IMG/VR virus record: IMGVR_UViG_3300034198_021551
Coordinates: 1-20,664 of that record
Length of the DNA: 20,664 nt
Source: a virus
Reading direction: 5' to 3' (one strand)
The stretch's first letter is position 1, and the number at the start of each line of letters is the position of its first letter. Below are positions 4,244 through 20,448 of the stretch, piece after piece. The translations under genes were made by a program, and so were the position numbers. The notes under the pieces are model-generated. The model searched no databases, was not told the origin of the DNA, and saw only the letters and a list, made by a program, of their open reading frames with translations.

Positions 4244-4272
4244 CCTTGCGGACCAGTCTACAAGGAGCAGAT

Positions 4273-7200
4273 ATGTTGAAGTACGTCACACAAGTTTTTC
4301 TTATGTGTATGTTGATGACAACCATCACGTATGCACAGCAGACAGAATCACGAATTATCGGAAAGATTACCGACACTACACGAGCCGTACTGCCTGGTGT
4401 GTCCATCACGGTCACGTCACACCAGACAGGAACGGCTCGTGTTGTTGTATCTGACAGTGTTGGTGTGTATGCTATTACCAATCTATCACCAGGCAAGTAT
4501 GCAGTTGACGCTATGCTTGACGGGTTCGCACCCACACATCGCGATATTGTGCTTGGAGTTGGACAGATTGAGACACTGGATGTGACGTTGAGTGTCGGAT
4601 TGACTGATGTGGTACAAGTAGATGCGAACGTACCTGTACTCGATATATCTTCTGCAAAGATTGGCGTGAATGTGTCGTCAGCAGAGATTGAAAGTCTTCC
4701 CGTCAATGGACGAAACTTCGCGAATCTAATGACGCTGGCTACGGGTGCCACTACAGATGGTAATGGTGGGTGGGCAACGGTTCGTTTCAATGGGAAGTCG
4801 AACCAACAAAACTATCTTAGCTATGACGGTGTTGACGGCACATATGTGTGGGATGCAACACCCAGTTATCTGAACGCAACGGGTTCGCAGTTTCGACTGC
4901 AAACATCAATGGAGGCGGTCGGAGAGTTTCGAGTGAATTCGGGTTTGGCACCGGCTGAGAGTGGATTGGGCTCAGGTGGCAACATTTCAGTTGTGACTAA
5001 AAGTGGGAGCAACCAACGTAGCGGGTCGGTGTTTACGTATCATCGTAATGACAAACTTGACGCGGTGAGTCCTTACGACAACGTGAAGCAACCGATGCGG
5101 CTGAATCAATTTGGAGGTTCTTTTGGTGGCCCACTCAAAGCGAATCGCACCTTTATATTCGGCAGCTATGAGGGATTGCGACAGACCACAGGTCTCTCGT
5201 TCACTGAAGCGGTGCCAAGCGACACGGCGCGCACACTAATTCTATCATCTGCAAATACCCGAACTCTGGCGGTCGCGCCACTGTTGTCTGGATTTCCACG
5301 CGGAACGACCCCCACGTCCAATCCTCTCGTCTCGCTCGCGACGAACTCCACCAATGCAACCCAGCGTGAACATAGCGCCGCATTTCGGTTTGACCAGACA
5401 ATTACGGCAAATCATTCGTTGTATCTGCGGTATCTCCGAAGCGATGGAACGCTCGACACGCCAGACCGCACGGTTACCCCAAGACGTATCCTTGCGCATG
5501 AACACGCGCAGAATGTCGTCGTTAACCTTCAGTCTATCTTTGGTCGGGCGGTCAATGAGTTGAAGCTCGGATACAATGTACCACACACAGATGCGACTGC
5601 GTATGGTCCTAGCGGATATGATGCCGTTGGGGTATCGCTATCGGGGTCATTTACGTCATCGTCTATTGATGCCCGTGGCACAACAGGTATTGCAAGAAGT
5701 GGATTGCTGATTCGCGCATCATCTGCATCATCCACGGTGGGTTCTGTATTTGCGCCGCAGTCGGTATCGTTTGCGGACACACTTACGTGGAATCGCAGTA
5801 ATCATACATTCAAGTTCGGAACCGAGTATCGAGCAATTCGTGGTGATTTCAAGTACCTTGATAGTACCGAGATTGCGTATAACAGCATCAATGATTTCAT
5901 TGCGAATACACCGAATTCGGTTGCGGTCGCACTGGACTCTCCAATGTTCAGTCCACGGCAATACTATCTCATCGGGTTCGCACAAGATTCATGGCGAATC
6001 ACACCACGCATGACCGCAGAACTCGGTTTACGCTACGATTTCTATTCGGTTGTTCGTGAAGCATACGGGCGGGCGCGTCCCTTCTTCGTTGAAGATAATG
6101 CCTTTGCAACAGATGCGAATAACTTCTACGATCCAGACTACAATAACGTCGCACCTCGAACATCTATATCGTATCAAGTGACACCAAAGACGGTTGTGCG
6201 TGGCGGATTTGGCATTTTCTACGGACCTGGCCAGTTTGAAGATCGTATTCAGCCCATCGAAAACTATATTCAGCGTCGAAAGGTCACTGCTGCGGATTTA
6301 CCTGCCGGACAATTAGCATACCCTGTACCCACATCCGCATACAAGGACATTCTTGCAATTCGTGGCTACACCCATCATCGCCCTGACGAATACAACGTCC
6401 AGTATGGAGGAAGTCTTTCGCGAGAGCTGCCCGGGTCAACCAGCCTGACTATTGGTTACACAGGTAGTCGCGGCCGCGACATGTTCTTACGAGGTGTAGG
6501 AAACACACTCGATACGACAACGCTCGTACGACTCGCGCCAAGTGTGGGACAGGTTGACTATAAAACATCTGGATGTCTCAATGGTCTGGTGATTGCGAAA
6601 ACCCCGATATATGGCTGTGGTGTGGCGGCATATGACGCGGTTCAACTCAATGCGACGCGTAGATTCCATCGCGGCGTTACTGCGGCTTTCCAGTATCAGT
6701 TTTCGCGAAATCGAGGCACGACACAAGGGTCAAACGAAGCCGCCACAACACAGAACACATTTGATTTTACGACAGAATACGGCACCAATCCGCAAGACAT
6801 CCCACACACGTTCAACGGGTCATTGGTCTATGACGTACACGGATGGCACATCGGCGCGATGGTGAATGCTCGGAGTGGTGTGCCATTGAATGTGACGATT
6901 AACCGACCCGATAACATCACGGTGAATGGGGTGACGGTTGCCAACATTCCCGGTGGAAATAGTCGAGGCACACAACGTCCTGATTTGATTCCGCATGTGA
7001 ATCCGTATCTCAAGGATGGTGTACGGTGGTTGAATCCTGCGGCGTTTGCTACACCGCAGCCCGGCACGTTTGGGAATCTCCCACGCAACTACCTCCGTGG
7101 TCCTGCGTTTTGGCAAACGGATGTTATGGTAAGCCGTGATATACATCGGATGCAATTTCGCGTAGACGTGTTCAATGTGCTGAATCACTTGAACTATGAG

Positions 7201-7359
7201 AATCCTGCCGTTAATCTGCCGAATGGAATTCCAGGCGTTCCGTTTAACTCGACAACTGCGGGCACATTTGGATACATTATGGGACCGCTTAATCGTACGG
7301 TTGGACTTGGCACCGCACGGCAAGTACAAGGTTCTATTCGCTATTCATTTGGACACTAA
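4273..7359 (+). CDS. Oar-like TonB-dependent outer-membrane receptor with carboxypeptidase-regulatory domain
   Basis: Outer-membrane beta-barrel transporter of 1028 residues. Seen: a signal peptide at residues 1-21 ending TYA before QQ; an immunoglobulin-like carboxypeptidase-regulatory domain at about 27-108 (IIGKITD, LPGVSITV, GVYAITNLSPGKYAV); a plug region from about 111 with SLPVNGRNFANLM; then GGNISVVTKSGSN, RNDKLDA, NQFGGSFGGPL and FIFGSYEGLR, words typical of acidobacterial Oar-like receptors; and a C-terminus ending YSFGH, with the aromatic residue near the end as in barrels recognised by the Bam machinery. No frameshift or stop is seen. The start at ATG 4273 has AAGGAG six bases upstream; an in-frame TTG at 4246 has no such site. 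The gene is flanked by phage recombination genes on the left and by Hsp20, Dps and gp32 on the right, so it is carried by the phage. Its substrate cannot be inferred. Confidence 0.92.
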   Translation: MLKYVTQVFLMCMLMTTITYAQQTESRIIGKITDTTRAVLPGVSITVTSHQTGTARVVVSDSVGVYAITNLSPGKYAVDAMLDGFAPTHRDIVLGVGQIETLDVTLSVGLTDVVQVDANVPVLDISSAKIGVNVSSAEIESLPVNGRNFANLMTLATGATTDGNGGWATVRFNGKSNQQNYLSYDGVDGTYVWDATPSYLNATGSQFRLQTSMEAVGEFRVNSGLAPAESGLGSGGNISVVTKSGSNQRSGSVFTYHRNDKLDAVSPYDNVKQPMRLNQFGGSFGGPLKANRTFIFGSYEGLRQTTGLSFTEAVPSDTARTLILSSANTRTLAVAPLLSGFPRGTTPTSNPLVSLATNSTNATQREHSAAFRFDQTITANHSLYLRYLRSDGTLDTPDRTVTPRRILAHEHAQNVVVNLQSIFGRAVNELKLGYNVPHTDATAYGPSGYDAVGVSLSGSFTSSSIDARGTTGIARSGLLIRASSASSTVGSVFAPQSVSFADTLTWNRSNHTFKFGTEYRAIRGDFKYLDSTEIAYNSINDFIANTPNSVAVALDSPMFSPRQYYLIGFAQDSWRITPRMTAELGLRYDFYSVVREAYGRARPFFVEDNAFATDANNFYDPDYNNVAPRTSISYQVTPKTVVRGGFGIFYGPGQFEDRIQPIENYIQRRKVTAADLPAGQLAYPVPTSAYKDILAIRGYTHHRPDEYNVQYGGSLSRELPGSTSLTIGYTGSRGRDMFLRGVGNTLDTTTLVRLAPSVGQVDYKTSGCLNGLVIAKTPIYGCGVAAYDAVQLNATRRFHRGVTAAFQYQFSRNRGTTQGSNEAATTQNTFDFTTEYGTNPQDIPHTFNGSLVYDVHGWHIGAMVNARSGVPLNVTINRPDNITVNGVTVANIPGGNSRGTQRPDLIPHVNPYLKDGVRWLNPAAFATPQPGTFGNLPRNYLRGPAFWQTDVMVSRDIHRMQFRVDVFNVLNHLNYENPAVNLPNGIPGVPFNSTTAGTFGYIMGPLNRTVGLGTARQVQGSIRYSFGH

Positions 7360-7376
7360 ATAGTAATGTTCAACCG

Positions 7377-7405
7377 CGACGATGATGCCTTCGGGGTCAT
7401 CGTCG
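7377..7405 (+). terminator. Hairpin after the receptor gene, weak intrinsic terminator or leader hairpin
   Basis: A perfect 9-bp stem (CGACGATGA with TCATCGTCG) and an 11-base loop are followed by TTT. A TAAATA box at 7357-7362, overlapping the receptor stop codon, lies just upstream. If that box is a promoter, the hairpin sits in the hsp20 leader instead of ending the receptor transcript. The T-tract is short, so termination would be partial. Confidence 0.55.
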
Positions 7406-7432
7406 TTTAACCGTCGCTCTAAGGAGGACACC

Positions 7433-7906
7433 ATGACTCAGAATTACCTGCCTGCCAGTCTGCTTTCCAACACTTTCTTCCAGACCACTATCGGGTACGA
7501 CCGGATTTTCGGCGAACTTCGAACACTACTGGAAACCACCCCGACGAAGCCATCAAACTACCCGCCGCACAATATCATTCAGGTGGATGACCACGTGTTT
7601 GATATTCATGTCGGTGTTGCAGGATTCGATATCGAGGATCTTGAAGTTTATACTGAAAAGCAGCAATTGGTGATTAAGGGCAAGCGAGAACACCCGACCG
7701 ATGAGAATGCGAAGTATATCCATCGCGGTCTCGCACTGCGCTCGTTCGAGAAGGTGATTCCCATCGCAGACACGATTGAGCTAAAGGGTGCATACATGAA
7801 CAACGGCTTTCTCCGTATCACGGTCGAGAATGTTGTGCCGGAAAAGGATAAGCGCAAGCAAATCGAGATTCGTCACGAATACACCAAAGAACTTCCCACC
7901 GAATAG
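7433..7906 (+). CDS. hsp20: Hsp20/alpha-crystallin family small heat-shock protein
   Basis: ATP-independent chaperone that holds unfolding proteins; phage-borne members are common in T4-like cyanophages. The 157-residue protein has a short N-terminal arm (1-45), an alpha-crystallin domain at about 46-135 (VFDIHVGVAGFDIEDLEV, QQLVIKGKRE, RSFEKVIPIAD) and the A-x-x-x-N-G-x-L signature as AYMNNGFLRI at 120-129, followed by a charged tail. The start ATG has a strong AAGGAGG site eight bases upstream; longer in-frame forms from 7382 would run through the upstream hairpin and are unlikely. It lies between two hairpins, so it is probably a single-gene transcript. The function in infection (folding of phage structural proteins or stress protection) is inference. 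Confidence 0.93.
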   Translation: MTQNYLPASLLSNTFFQTTIGYDRIFGELRTLLETTPTKPSNYPPHNIIQVDDHVFDIHVGVAGFDIEDLEVYTEKQQLVIKGKREHPTDENAKYIHRGLALRSFEKVIPIADTIELKGAYMNNGFLRITVENVVPEKDKRKQIEIRHEYTKELPTE

Positions 7907-10748: not shown

Positions 10749-10808
10749 CTACTAGGCCGCGAGTGCGTAACTGTTATCAGTTACTGTGTGTCTCTGTTTA
10801 ACGTCAGC
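10749..10808 (-). other. tmRNA tag reading frame (18 codons, tandem TAG stops)
   Basis: The resume codon is GCT after AAGTC, the same context as AGTC-GCA in E. coli. The frame encodes ADVKQRHTVTDNSYALAA, followed by TAG TAG. The terminal ALAA is the ClpXP/ClpAP recognition end, and NSYALAA resembles the E. coli end (ENYALAA). At 18 codons it is longer than the 10-codon E. coli tag reading frame. The resume codon is inferred by pattern only. Confidence 0.8.
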
Positions 10809-10869
10809 GACTTGACGATTGTCTCCATGTCGTTCTGCCAATACCCCGTCGAAGCCAGATCGCCCCCAT

Positions 10870-10984
10870 CATCAACACACCACATCACCACGCGCTACCC
10901 ACCCCAGTTTCCCCGTACAACGTCCACGTCAGCCGACGAATTAGGTTCTGGGCCTTAGCCTTGTCCGTGTGTGATGTGCTGATG
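10870..10984 (-). repeat. Structured RNA motif, copy 1, joining the two tmRNA halves
   Basis: Between CCA and the mature 5' G lies a stem-loop that continues the acceptor stem. A 14-bp helix (10984-10971 with 10883-10870, two G-U pairs) leads to an A opposite GTGAT, then CACG/CGTG, then conserved single strands (10965-10952 and 10901-10893), then an inner stem CCCAG/CTGGG. The strand at 10882-10901 is identical to 20291-20310, and 10952-10972 matches 20414-20434 with one change. The two copies share strand order but not the flanking stem sequences. Confidence 0.75.
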
Positions 10985-11045
10985 GTGGAGGCGGCGGGAG
11001 TCGAACCCGCGTCCGCGATATCCGTTCAACACTTCATCGACAATA

Positions 11046-11447
11046 TCAATATTTAGTCGGTATCTCGTTCAAATAGTTGATCGCGTTTTGTAATATTGTA
11101 GTGTTAGGAAATGCACCTAACGCTCGATTACATGTGTGACAGAGCCAGCCCCGGAATTCTTTTGTTTCGTGGTCGTGGTCTACCGTCCACGGTGATGTGA
11201 ATCTGTTTCCAGCATTTCTAACTTCGTCTTCTGTCTTTTGGCAGATGGGGCATGTATGATTTTTTGGTGACGGATACTGTTTGCGCAAGGCCTTGCGTTC
11301 GTTTGCCAACATACGTTCACATCGTTTGCACTCGGAACGAAGATAGTTGGCACCGCTGGCCACTGTGTATTCGTGTAATGGTAATTCGTTGCTACATTTA
11401 CTACACTTTTTGGTTTCCTCTGTAGAAGGCCCGAATAAAGTATCCAT
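11046..11447 (-). CDS. Endonuclease VII-like HNH nuclease with zinc ribbons
   Basis: 133 residues. Paired cysteines at 15/18, 40/43, 66/69 and 103/106 form zinc sites, and the catalytic segment VDHDHE (89-94) followed by GWLCHTCNRALG (100-111) is the hallmark of the recombination endonuclease VII family (T4 gp49 type), also found in free-standing homing nucleases. No clear ribosome site precedes the ATG. The base composition is visibly richer in A and T than its neighbours, which hints at later arrival. Its last codons (Thr-Lys-Tyr-stop) contain the CTAAATAT box that probably drives the tmRNA. Holliday-junction resolvase and homing nuclease are both possible; at 133 residues it is shorter than T4 gp49 (157). 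Confidence 0.85.
   Translation of the reverse strand: MDTLFGPSTEETKKCSKCSNELPLHEYTVASGANYLRSECKRCERMLANERKALRKQYPSPKNHTCPICQKTEDEVRNAGNRFTSPWTVDHDHETKEFRGWLCHTCNRALGAFPNTTILQNAINYLNEIPTKY
11049..11056 (-). promoter_or_regulatory. CTAAATAT box, candidate late promoter of the tmRNA
   Basis: The box lies inside the last codons of the HNH gene. With T4 late-promoter spacing (last A of the box at -6) transcription would start at 11044, exactly the first base of the helix-2 strand ATTGTC of the acceptor half. This fit supports both the promoter and the 5' end of the RNA. Confidence 0.55.
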
Positions 11448-19985: not shown

Positions 19986-20261
19986 CTAACGGTTTCGCTT
20001 TCGGCTGGCTTTCGCGAGAGCGTCTTTCTTCCGATTGCGCGTCTTGCGGTTCGCTTTCGTACCATGCGGGTCGCTGATGCGCTGTGCTTTGGTGAGCATC
20101 TTTCGCAGCATCTGCATTTCCTTCAGTGACCGTTCCATCTTCGCAATCGTCTCCGGTGACGGTGCGTTCGGGTCAATGGTCAACCGTGTCGGTGAGTTAT
20201 CGATTGCCAGTGTCTGCCCACCATCGGTCGGTGGAATGATCTCATATTCAACGTGTTCCAT
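19986..20261 (-). CDS. Small protein with a strongly basic C-terminus
   Basis: 91 residues, not recognised. The N-terminal 35 residues are acidic to neutral (MEHVEYEIIPPTDGG), the middle is a predicted helix (PETIAKMERSLKEMQMLRKML), and the last 25 residues are very rich in Lys and Arg (NRKTRNRKKDALAKASRKRNR), which suggests nucleic-acid binding. AAAGGAA lies ten bases before the ATG. Its leader carries copy 2 of the structured RNA motif, so it may be controlled by that RNA. Confidence 0.78.
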   Translation of the reverse strand: MEHVEYEIIPPTDGGQTLAIDNSPTRLTIDPNAPSPETIAKMERSLKEMQMLRKMLTKAQRISDPHGTKANRKTRNRKKDALAKASRKRNR

Positions 20262-20287
20262 ATAGATTCCTTTATCTTAACATCTAA

Positions 20288-20437
20288 ACGACATCACCAC
20301 GCGCTACCCATCCTGATGTGCGCCGCTTGTGGATTCCAACAAACTACTTATGGGTTTTGAAGCTCAGTAACTACAGGACTCGCACCTGCTGGTATCTCCT
20401 TCACCCACATCAAGCCTCAGCCTTGTCCGTGTGTCGT
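20288..20437 (-). ncRNA. Structured RNA motif, copy 2, in the leader of the basic-protein gene
   Basis: The two conserved strands of the tmRNA joining segment recur here in the same order, one of 20 bases identical (20291-20310) and one of 21 bases with a single change (20414-20434). The outer stem is ACGAC/GTCGT (20437-20433 with 20292-20288), where copy 1 has ATCAC/GTGGT, and the inner stem is CTTGATGTG/CACATCAGG (20414-20406 with 20320-20312), where copy 1 has CCCAG/CTGGG. CACG/CGTG and the A opposite GTGAT are kept. The loop is about 85 nt longer than the short inner part of copy 1 would require and contains further hairpins, one resembling a T-arm (20373-20389). It ends 27 bases before the downstream ATG (20261). 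Confidence 0.65.
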
Positions 20438-20448
20438 ATGCTGGTGAA

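Follow-up and report, generated by a model that had tools for sequence, protein, structure and literature searches.

The window, by which we mean the whole analysed stretch of viral DNA (20,664 nucleotides), carries two copies of a previously uncatalogued family that is strongly supported as a structured RNA, and probably represents a phage gene for a small RNA of about 65-180 nt. The explanation that we tentatively favour, at close to even confidence, is that the element is a separate RNA gene of the phage, freed by tRNA processing or transcribed from a promoter of its own, which would act in trans through a core that binds a conserved partner. It is not part of the tmRNA: the permuted tmRNA in the window simply hosts it. 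The core is kept across unrelated phages, with Streptomyces, Arthrobacter, cyanobacterial and uncultured hosts, and has never been annotated. Such conservation suggests either that the core contacts some universal feature of bacterial cells or that the RNA is a new catalytic one, and the presence of the element in dozens of cultivable phages makes both ideas directly testable.

The two copies in the window

A permuted tmRNA is encoded on the minus strand of the window, as called by ARAGORN and by a match to Rfam RF04321 (91 bits). With its CCA end at 10983 and the start of its 5' half at 10867, the tmRNA spacer runs from 10868 to 10982, within 2-3 nt of the limits given in the sequence-only reading that preceded this analysis. 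One copy of the RNA fills this spacer entirely, is folded by RNAfold into a single long closed hairpin, and lies, like the second copy, on the strand of the tmRNA. The relevant features are listed below; for copy 2, the two core strands and both arms of P2 were placed from the sequence.

10752-10867, minus strand: 5' half of the tmRNA, with tag DNSYALAA (ARAGORN and Rfam; outer limit from the Rfam model)
10983-11045, minus strand: 3' (acceptor) half of the tmRNA (ARAGORN and Rfam; outer limit from the Rfam model)
10868-10982, minus strand: copy 1 of the RNA, the whole tmRNA spacer (match to model R1 at 10870-10983, 48.8 bits, E ~4e-11)
10967-10982, minus strand: copy 1, 5' arm of P1 (family-wide P1 covariation)
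10952-10968, minus strand: copy 1, 5' core strand ACGGACAAGGCTAAGGC (near-invariant among all relatives)
10948-10952, minus strand: copy 1, 5' arm of P2, CCCAG (partner 10903-10907; family-wide P2 covariation)
10903-10907, minus strand: copy 1, 3' arm of P2, CTGGG (family-wide P2 covariation)
10887-10902, minus strand: copy 1, 3' core strand GTGGGTAGCGCGTGGT (near-invariant among all relatives)
10868-10888, minus strand: copy 1, 3' arm of P1 with a bulged A (P1 covariation; bulge of the GAU class)
20285-20439, minus strand: copy 2 of the RNA, in the 5' leader of a 91-aa ORF at 19986-20261 (model R1, 33.1 bits, E ~1e-6)
20414-20430, minus strand: copy 2, 5' core strand
20406-20414, minus strand: copy 2, 5' arm of P2, CTTGATGTG (partner 20312-20320; family P2 covariation)
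20312-20320, minus strand: copy 2, 3' arm of P2, CACATCAGG
20296-20311, minus strand: copy 2, 3' core strand

On the minus strand, ACACACGGACAAGGCTRAGGC and GGGTAGCGCGTGGTGATGT are common to 10868-10982 and 20285-20439. In plus-strand coordinates the shared strands comprise 20 identical nucleotides (10882-10901 and 20291-20310) and 21 nucleotides with one change (10952-10972 and 20414-20434), exactly as had been reported from the letters of the window. The inner stems also pair as claimed there (CCCAG with CTGGG in copy 1, CTTGATGTG with CACATCAGG in copy 2), and the outer stems do pair, but they are longer than had been described and contain a bulged A. This two-strand similarity is not a chance resemblance, since the pattern recurs in more than 100 viral contigs, the model matches both copies, and the covariation exceeds that of every shuffle.

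Structure, covariation and circular permutation

From its ends inwards, the element consists of a closing helix (P1), a two-strand core, a second helix (P2) and a variable tip (P3). Between P1 and P2 lies an internal loop of about 14+14 nt, made up of two near-invariant strands that read ACGGACAAGGCUNNGG and RUGGGNAGCGHGUGGU. The sequence of P1, which joins the two ends of the element over a median of 13 bp, is arbitrary, and its 3' arm usually carries a bulge near the core, which may be a single A, ACCA or something similar. Within the ten positions that immediately follow the A-C/G-U pairs, an average of 9.35 are paired, and the P1 pairing score of 14.3 falls to -2.6 when 3' flanks are swapped among sequences. 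Covariation across P1 and P2 reaches 0.684 in a MAFFT alignment of 23 copies, in which G-U pairs are few, against 0.141 after shuffling, and no shuffle scored as high. For 77 model-aligned copies the value is 0.830 against 0.162, with both sides changing in 17 of the 18 pairs; because this larger alignment was fitted to the model, the 23-copy figure is the stricter of the two. The sequence-only reading had staked its proposal, that the conserved strands and covarying stems mark a functional RNA with structure, on the existence of homologues and on covariation of their stems. Both were found, the homologues in more than 100 viral contigs and the covariation far above every shuffle, so that this proposal is now strongly supported.

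A search of Rfam 15 (E values up to 5 for the window and small sets, the gathering score for others) returned no match at the element in the window or its relatives, the only matches being to tRNA, tmRNA and, at a distance, two pistol ribozymes. The open-access papers searched likewise contain no description of the RNA, and its core strings retrieve nothing relevant there; an earlier description elsewhere is possible. We call the RNA new in the sense that it matches no catalogued family, although its function may still place it within a known kind.

Scans for the two strands in reverse order gave matches in 13 contigs, four of which hold circular permutants (L342, L339, L363 and L364), with a hairpin closing P1 and with P2 as the open stem. 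These were recognised by features lying outside the search pattern, namely TGGG before AGCG, present in 4/4 permutants and 0/9 other reverse-order matches, together with pairing on both sides. L342 has a P2 of 21 pairs. L339, flanked by tRNA-Arg and tRNA-Ser, has a closed P1 that retains the bulged A; L364 keeps the order P2, internal loop, P3, with U-A replacing C-G; and L363 is followed, about 160 nt downstream, by a permuted tmRNA. In L339, L363 and L364, P2 taken alone is not significant against shuffles, and their status as permutants rests on the combined features. Seven reverse-order matches with a 4-nt gap represent one homologous sequence lacking both TGGG and P2, and were rejected as chance. 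Natural circular permutation has otherwise been reported in hammerhead and twister ribozymes, 5S rRNA and group II introns (PMC10085705).

Distribution and genomic setting

Gapped two-strand patterns identified 51, 52 and 20 viral contigs, all of them genome fragments, for three gap ranges; the comparison set of 108 distinct copies was collected before the third of these scans. Among cultured phages, the RNA is present in more than 70 records of Stanwilliamsviridae (Streptomyces), in the Arthrobacter phages Racecar, Mimi and Atuin, and in Microcystis phage Mwe-JY13; only rarely is there an annotated feature beneath it. It is a single copy in 34 of the 35 whole records with a match, which range up to 251 kb; two copies were seen in the window and in G002. 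Prokaryote genomes almost lack the element (9 matches in 85,000 species for one gap range, four of them confirmed by the model). One copy lies on a Nomurabacteria (CPR) MAG contig (L285, region 6753-7758, plus strand) between an smpB-like ORF and ssrA, with infC-, rplT- and truB-like ORFs on the same contig, these gene names being read from the sequences and not from a family search; a second bacterial MAG also has the element near smpB and ssrA. Wide presence in CPR bacteria was considered and rejected, as only 1 of 380 genomes sampled with stricter filters contained it. A strong copy (79.9 bits) at L288 1276-1371 (minus strand) comes from a MAG contig of Armatimonadota whose ORFs include peptidase- and glycosidase-like ones. 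It has TATATAAT before it, close to the base of P1, and may be a lone copy carried by a cellular genome.

The element is closely associated with stable-RNA genes. Where a tRNA or tmRNA lies within 1 kb, the nearest is on the same strand as the element in 52 of 52 copies, and tRNA density is 5.6 per 10 kb around the element but 0.10 per 10 kb in other phage contigs (57 times; Fisher p = 5e-16 for tRNA presence), the latter being a convenience set unmatched for genome size. Within tRNA arrays, 183 tRNAs lie upstream and 179 downstream, and the element occupies the start of only 6 of 38 arrays; given this symmetric position, it behaves like a member of the array and not like the leader of an operon. 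P1 often fills the gap between adjacent tRNA ends almost exactly. At about half of the loci there is no tRNA in the stretch examined, and the element there sits between protein genes. A tmRNA adjoins the element or lies near it in the window, in L174, L208, L217, L218, L228, L244, L156 and L363, and in Loccivirinae phages of Streptomyces; the element is inside a permuted tmRNA in the window, L174 and L208, and directly upstream of one, whose own spacer differs, in L217 and L218. At most of the roughly 115 loci no tmRNA was found in the stretch examined; the tmRNA counts are lower bounds, since L217 and L218 escaped the regular expression used for tmRNA 5' ends.

Several descriptions of the element were tried and set aside. 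In Streptomyces phages, TTGACA lies 40-51 nt before the core in 10 of the 10 examined (nine at 40-44 nt), most of them also having a -10-like hexamer. Promoters just upstream are not enriched in the metagenome set, and a universal promoter-proximal element was therefore rejected. T-tracts after P1 are no commoner than background (4/108), which argues against both a simple terminated sRNA and a terminator hairpin. No protein family is common to more than 5 of 111 loci among the neighbouring genes, so that a cis role for one gene is disfavoured, and with it the possibility that the element is the leader of one gene family. Occurrence only as the spacer of a permuted tmRNA was also rejected, in view of more than 100 loci elsewhere and the position outside the permuted tmRNA in L217 and L218.

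Some further observations concern neighbouring genes. In L208 (5750-6030), the second phage in which the element lies inside a permuted tmRNA, the tag-like frame reads DNSLS without an Ala-rich end, and this tmRNA may therefore be odd or degenerate. Pistol ribozymes above the Rfam gathering score occur at L156 12393-12452 and L240 11486-11545 (both minus strand), in tRNA arrays that also carry the new RNA. In the window, an endonuclease VII-like HNH gene (11046-11447, minus strand) ends one base from the permuted tmRNA, and HNH or endonuclease VII genes are also found near the element in Braelyn, Persimmon and TunaTartare.

Candidate roles and relation to known RNAs

In the model that we favour, the element would be a discrete RNA that travels with stable-RNA genes. 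Between tRNAs or tmRNA halves, host RNase P and 3'-end nucleases could free the hairpin closed by P1, and the tmRNA spacer of the window would be one more niche between two tRNA ends in which the element is housed; in Streptomyces phages it would instead start near the base of P1 from its own putative promoter. The free RNA may then act in trans, its core binding a partner that bacteria generally conserve, such as RNA polymerase, the ribosome or an RNase. Release would be less simple at the half or so of loci where the element lies between protein genes, because another step is needed there, and natural circular permutation, known mostly from ribozymes, also counts against this model. The core strands have no unusual complementarity to rRNA. 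Mimicry of rRNA was rejected: although the 5' strand is similar to part of E. coli 23S domain III (ACGGAGAAGGCT), the LSU model shows no conservation of that part, and its pairing in the rRNA is quite unlike that of the element.

The main rival, though on balance unlikely, is that the RNA is a new class of small self-cleaving ribozyme whose internal loop is the catalytic core, and whose cuts would separate tRNAs, tmRNA halves or mRNA segments in polycistronic phage transcripts. A ribozyme was one of the two possibilities named in the sequence-only reading; the circular permutants make it possible without demonstrating it. The large conserved core between variable, covarying helices and the four permutants, all with TGGG, are consistent with this, as is the company that ribozymes keep with phage tRNAs: theta ribozymes occur at phage tRNA 3' ends (PMC10879173), and the pistol ribozymes described above share arrays with the element. 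However, the RNA has no assigned cleavage site or catalytic residue and no Rfam ribozyme match, and there is essentially one copy per genome. Moreover, because P1 reaches as far as the tRNA ends, cleavage within the core would yield tRNAs with long tails and not with mature ends. Two-helix internal-loop motifs can generally be closed on either side, and 0 of 10 non-hammerhead candidate motifs cleaved when tested (PMC10085705). We regard as rather unlikely the broader statement that a new class of naturally circularly permuted, putative catalytic RNA has spread through large phages and processes their tRNA and tmRNA transcripts.

The remaining explanations fare worse. A cis-acting RNA that modifies its own transcribing RNA polymerase, as HK022 put does, might prevent termination in long untranslated tRNA or tmRNA transcripts, and would suit the position directly after the promoter in Streptomyces phages and upstream of the permuted tmRNAs in L217 and L218, the unrelated hosts and the constant agreement in strand with the neighbouring stable RNA. 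We consider it improbable, because array starts are not preferred; HK022 put also has no match to the model. The sequence-only reading had proposed an element that processes or caps the two-piece tmRNA, and a tmRNA-specific role in processing or protection draws on the copies inside, upstream of or near tmRNAs and on that between smpB and ssrA in the CPR MAG. Most copies, however, occupy other settings (among tRNAs or protein genes, behind promoters, or alongside a tmRNA and not inside one), leaving such a role unsupported and, in our judgement, very improbable. Least probable of all is a DNA element (an origin, packaging or recombination site) whose pairing acts as a DNA hairpin: a single copy per genome and the scarcity of G-U pairs would suit it, whereas the strand agreement with neighbouring tRNAs, the long, unpaired conserved strands and the array-internal sites occupied in place of RNA genes do not.

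Comparison with known RNAs places the family beside several others without joining it to any. Theta (HDV-like) ribozymes of gut phages are likewise small structured RNAs beside phage tRNAs, and were found by motif search in viral contigs. They abut the tRNA 3' end, the cleavage site, at which the 5' strand of their P1 starts, and form a nested double pseudoknot, whereas the core of the new RNA begins 6-20 nt after the tRNA with the outer helix between, P1 is an ordinary closing helix and the tRNA spacer is variable; HDV-family covariance models found no match in the window or its relatives (cmscan). Hammerhead and twister ribozymes share a conserved core between variable helices and natural circular permutants, but their covariance models give no match to the element. 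Phage T4 rnaC and rnaD are small stable RNAs in a phage tRNA cluster; they were rejected as relatives, having no model match, and the best T4 score (11.7 bits) lies outside rnaC/rnaD and lacks the core. The HK022 putL/putR antiterminator RNA (PMC9378689) resembles some copies of the new RNA in being a phage RNA, about 70 nt long, that lies close to a promoter, but it has two stem-loops and a different sequence, and was rejected since the putL/putR region gives no model match to the core. GOLLD and ROOL (PMC12286853), too, are structured RNAs found in bacteria and in bacteriophages whose role is not settled; they are large and form multimers, whereas the new RNA is about 100 nt and unrelated to them by Rfam search.

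Elsewhere in the window, a gene at 4246-7359 (plus strand) encodes an outer membrane barrel of 1037 aa that resembles TonB-dependent receptors and includes a carboxypeptidase-regulatory-like domain (Pfam PF25183, PF13620). Hsp20 and ferritin-like (Dps-type) genes follow it, an unusual cargo of host type for a phage contig.
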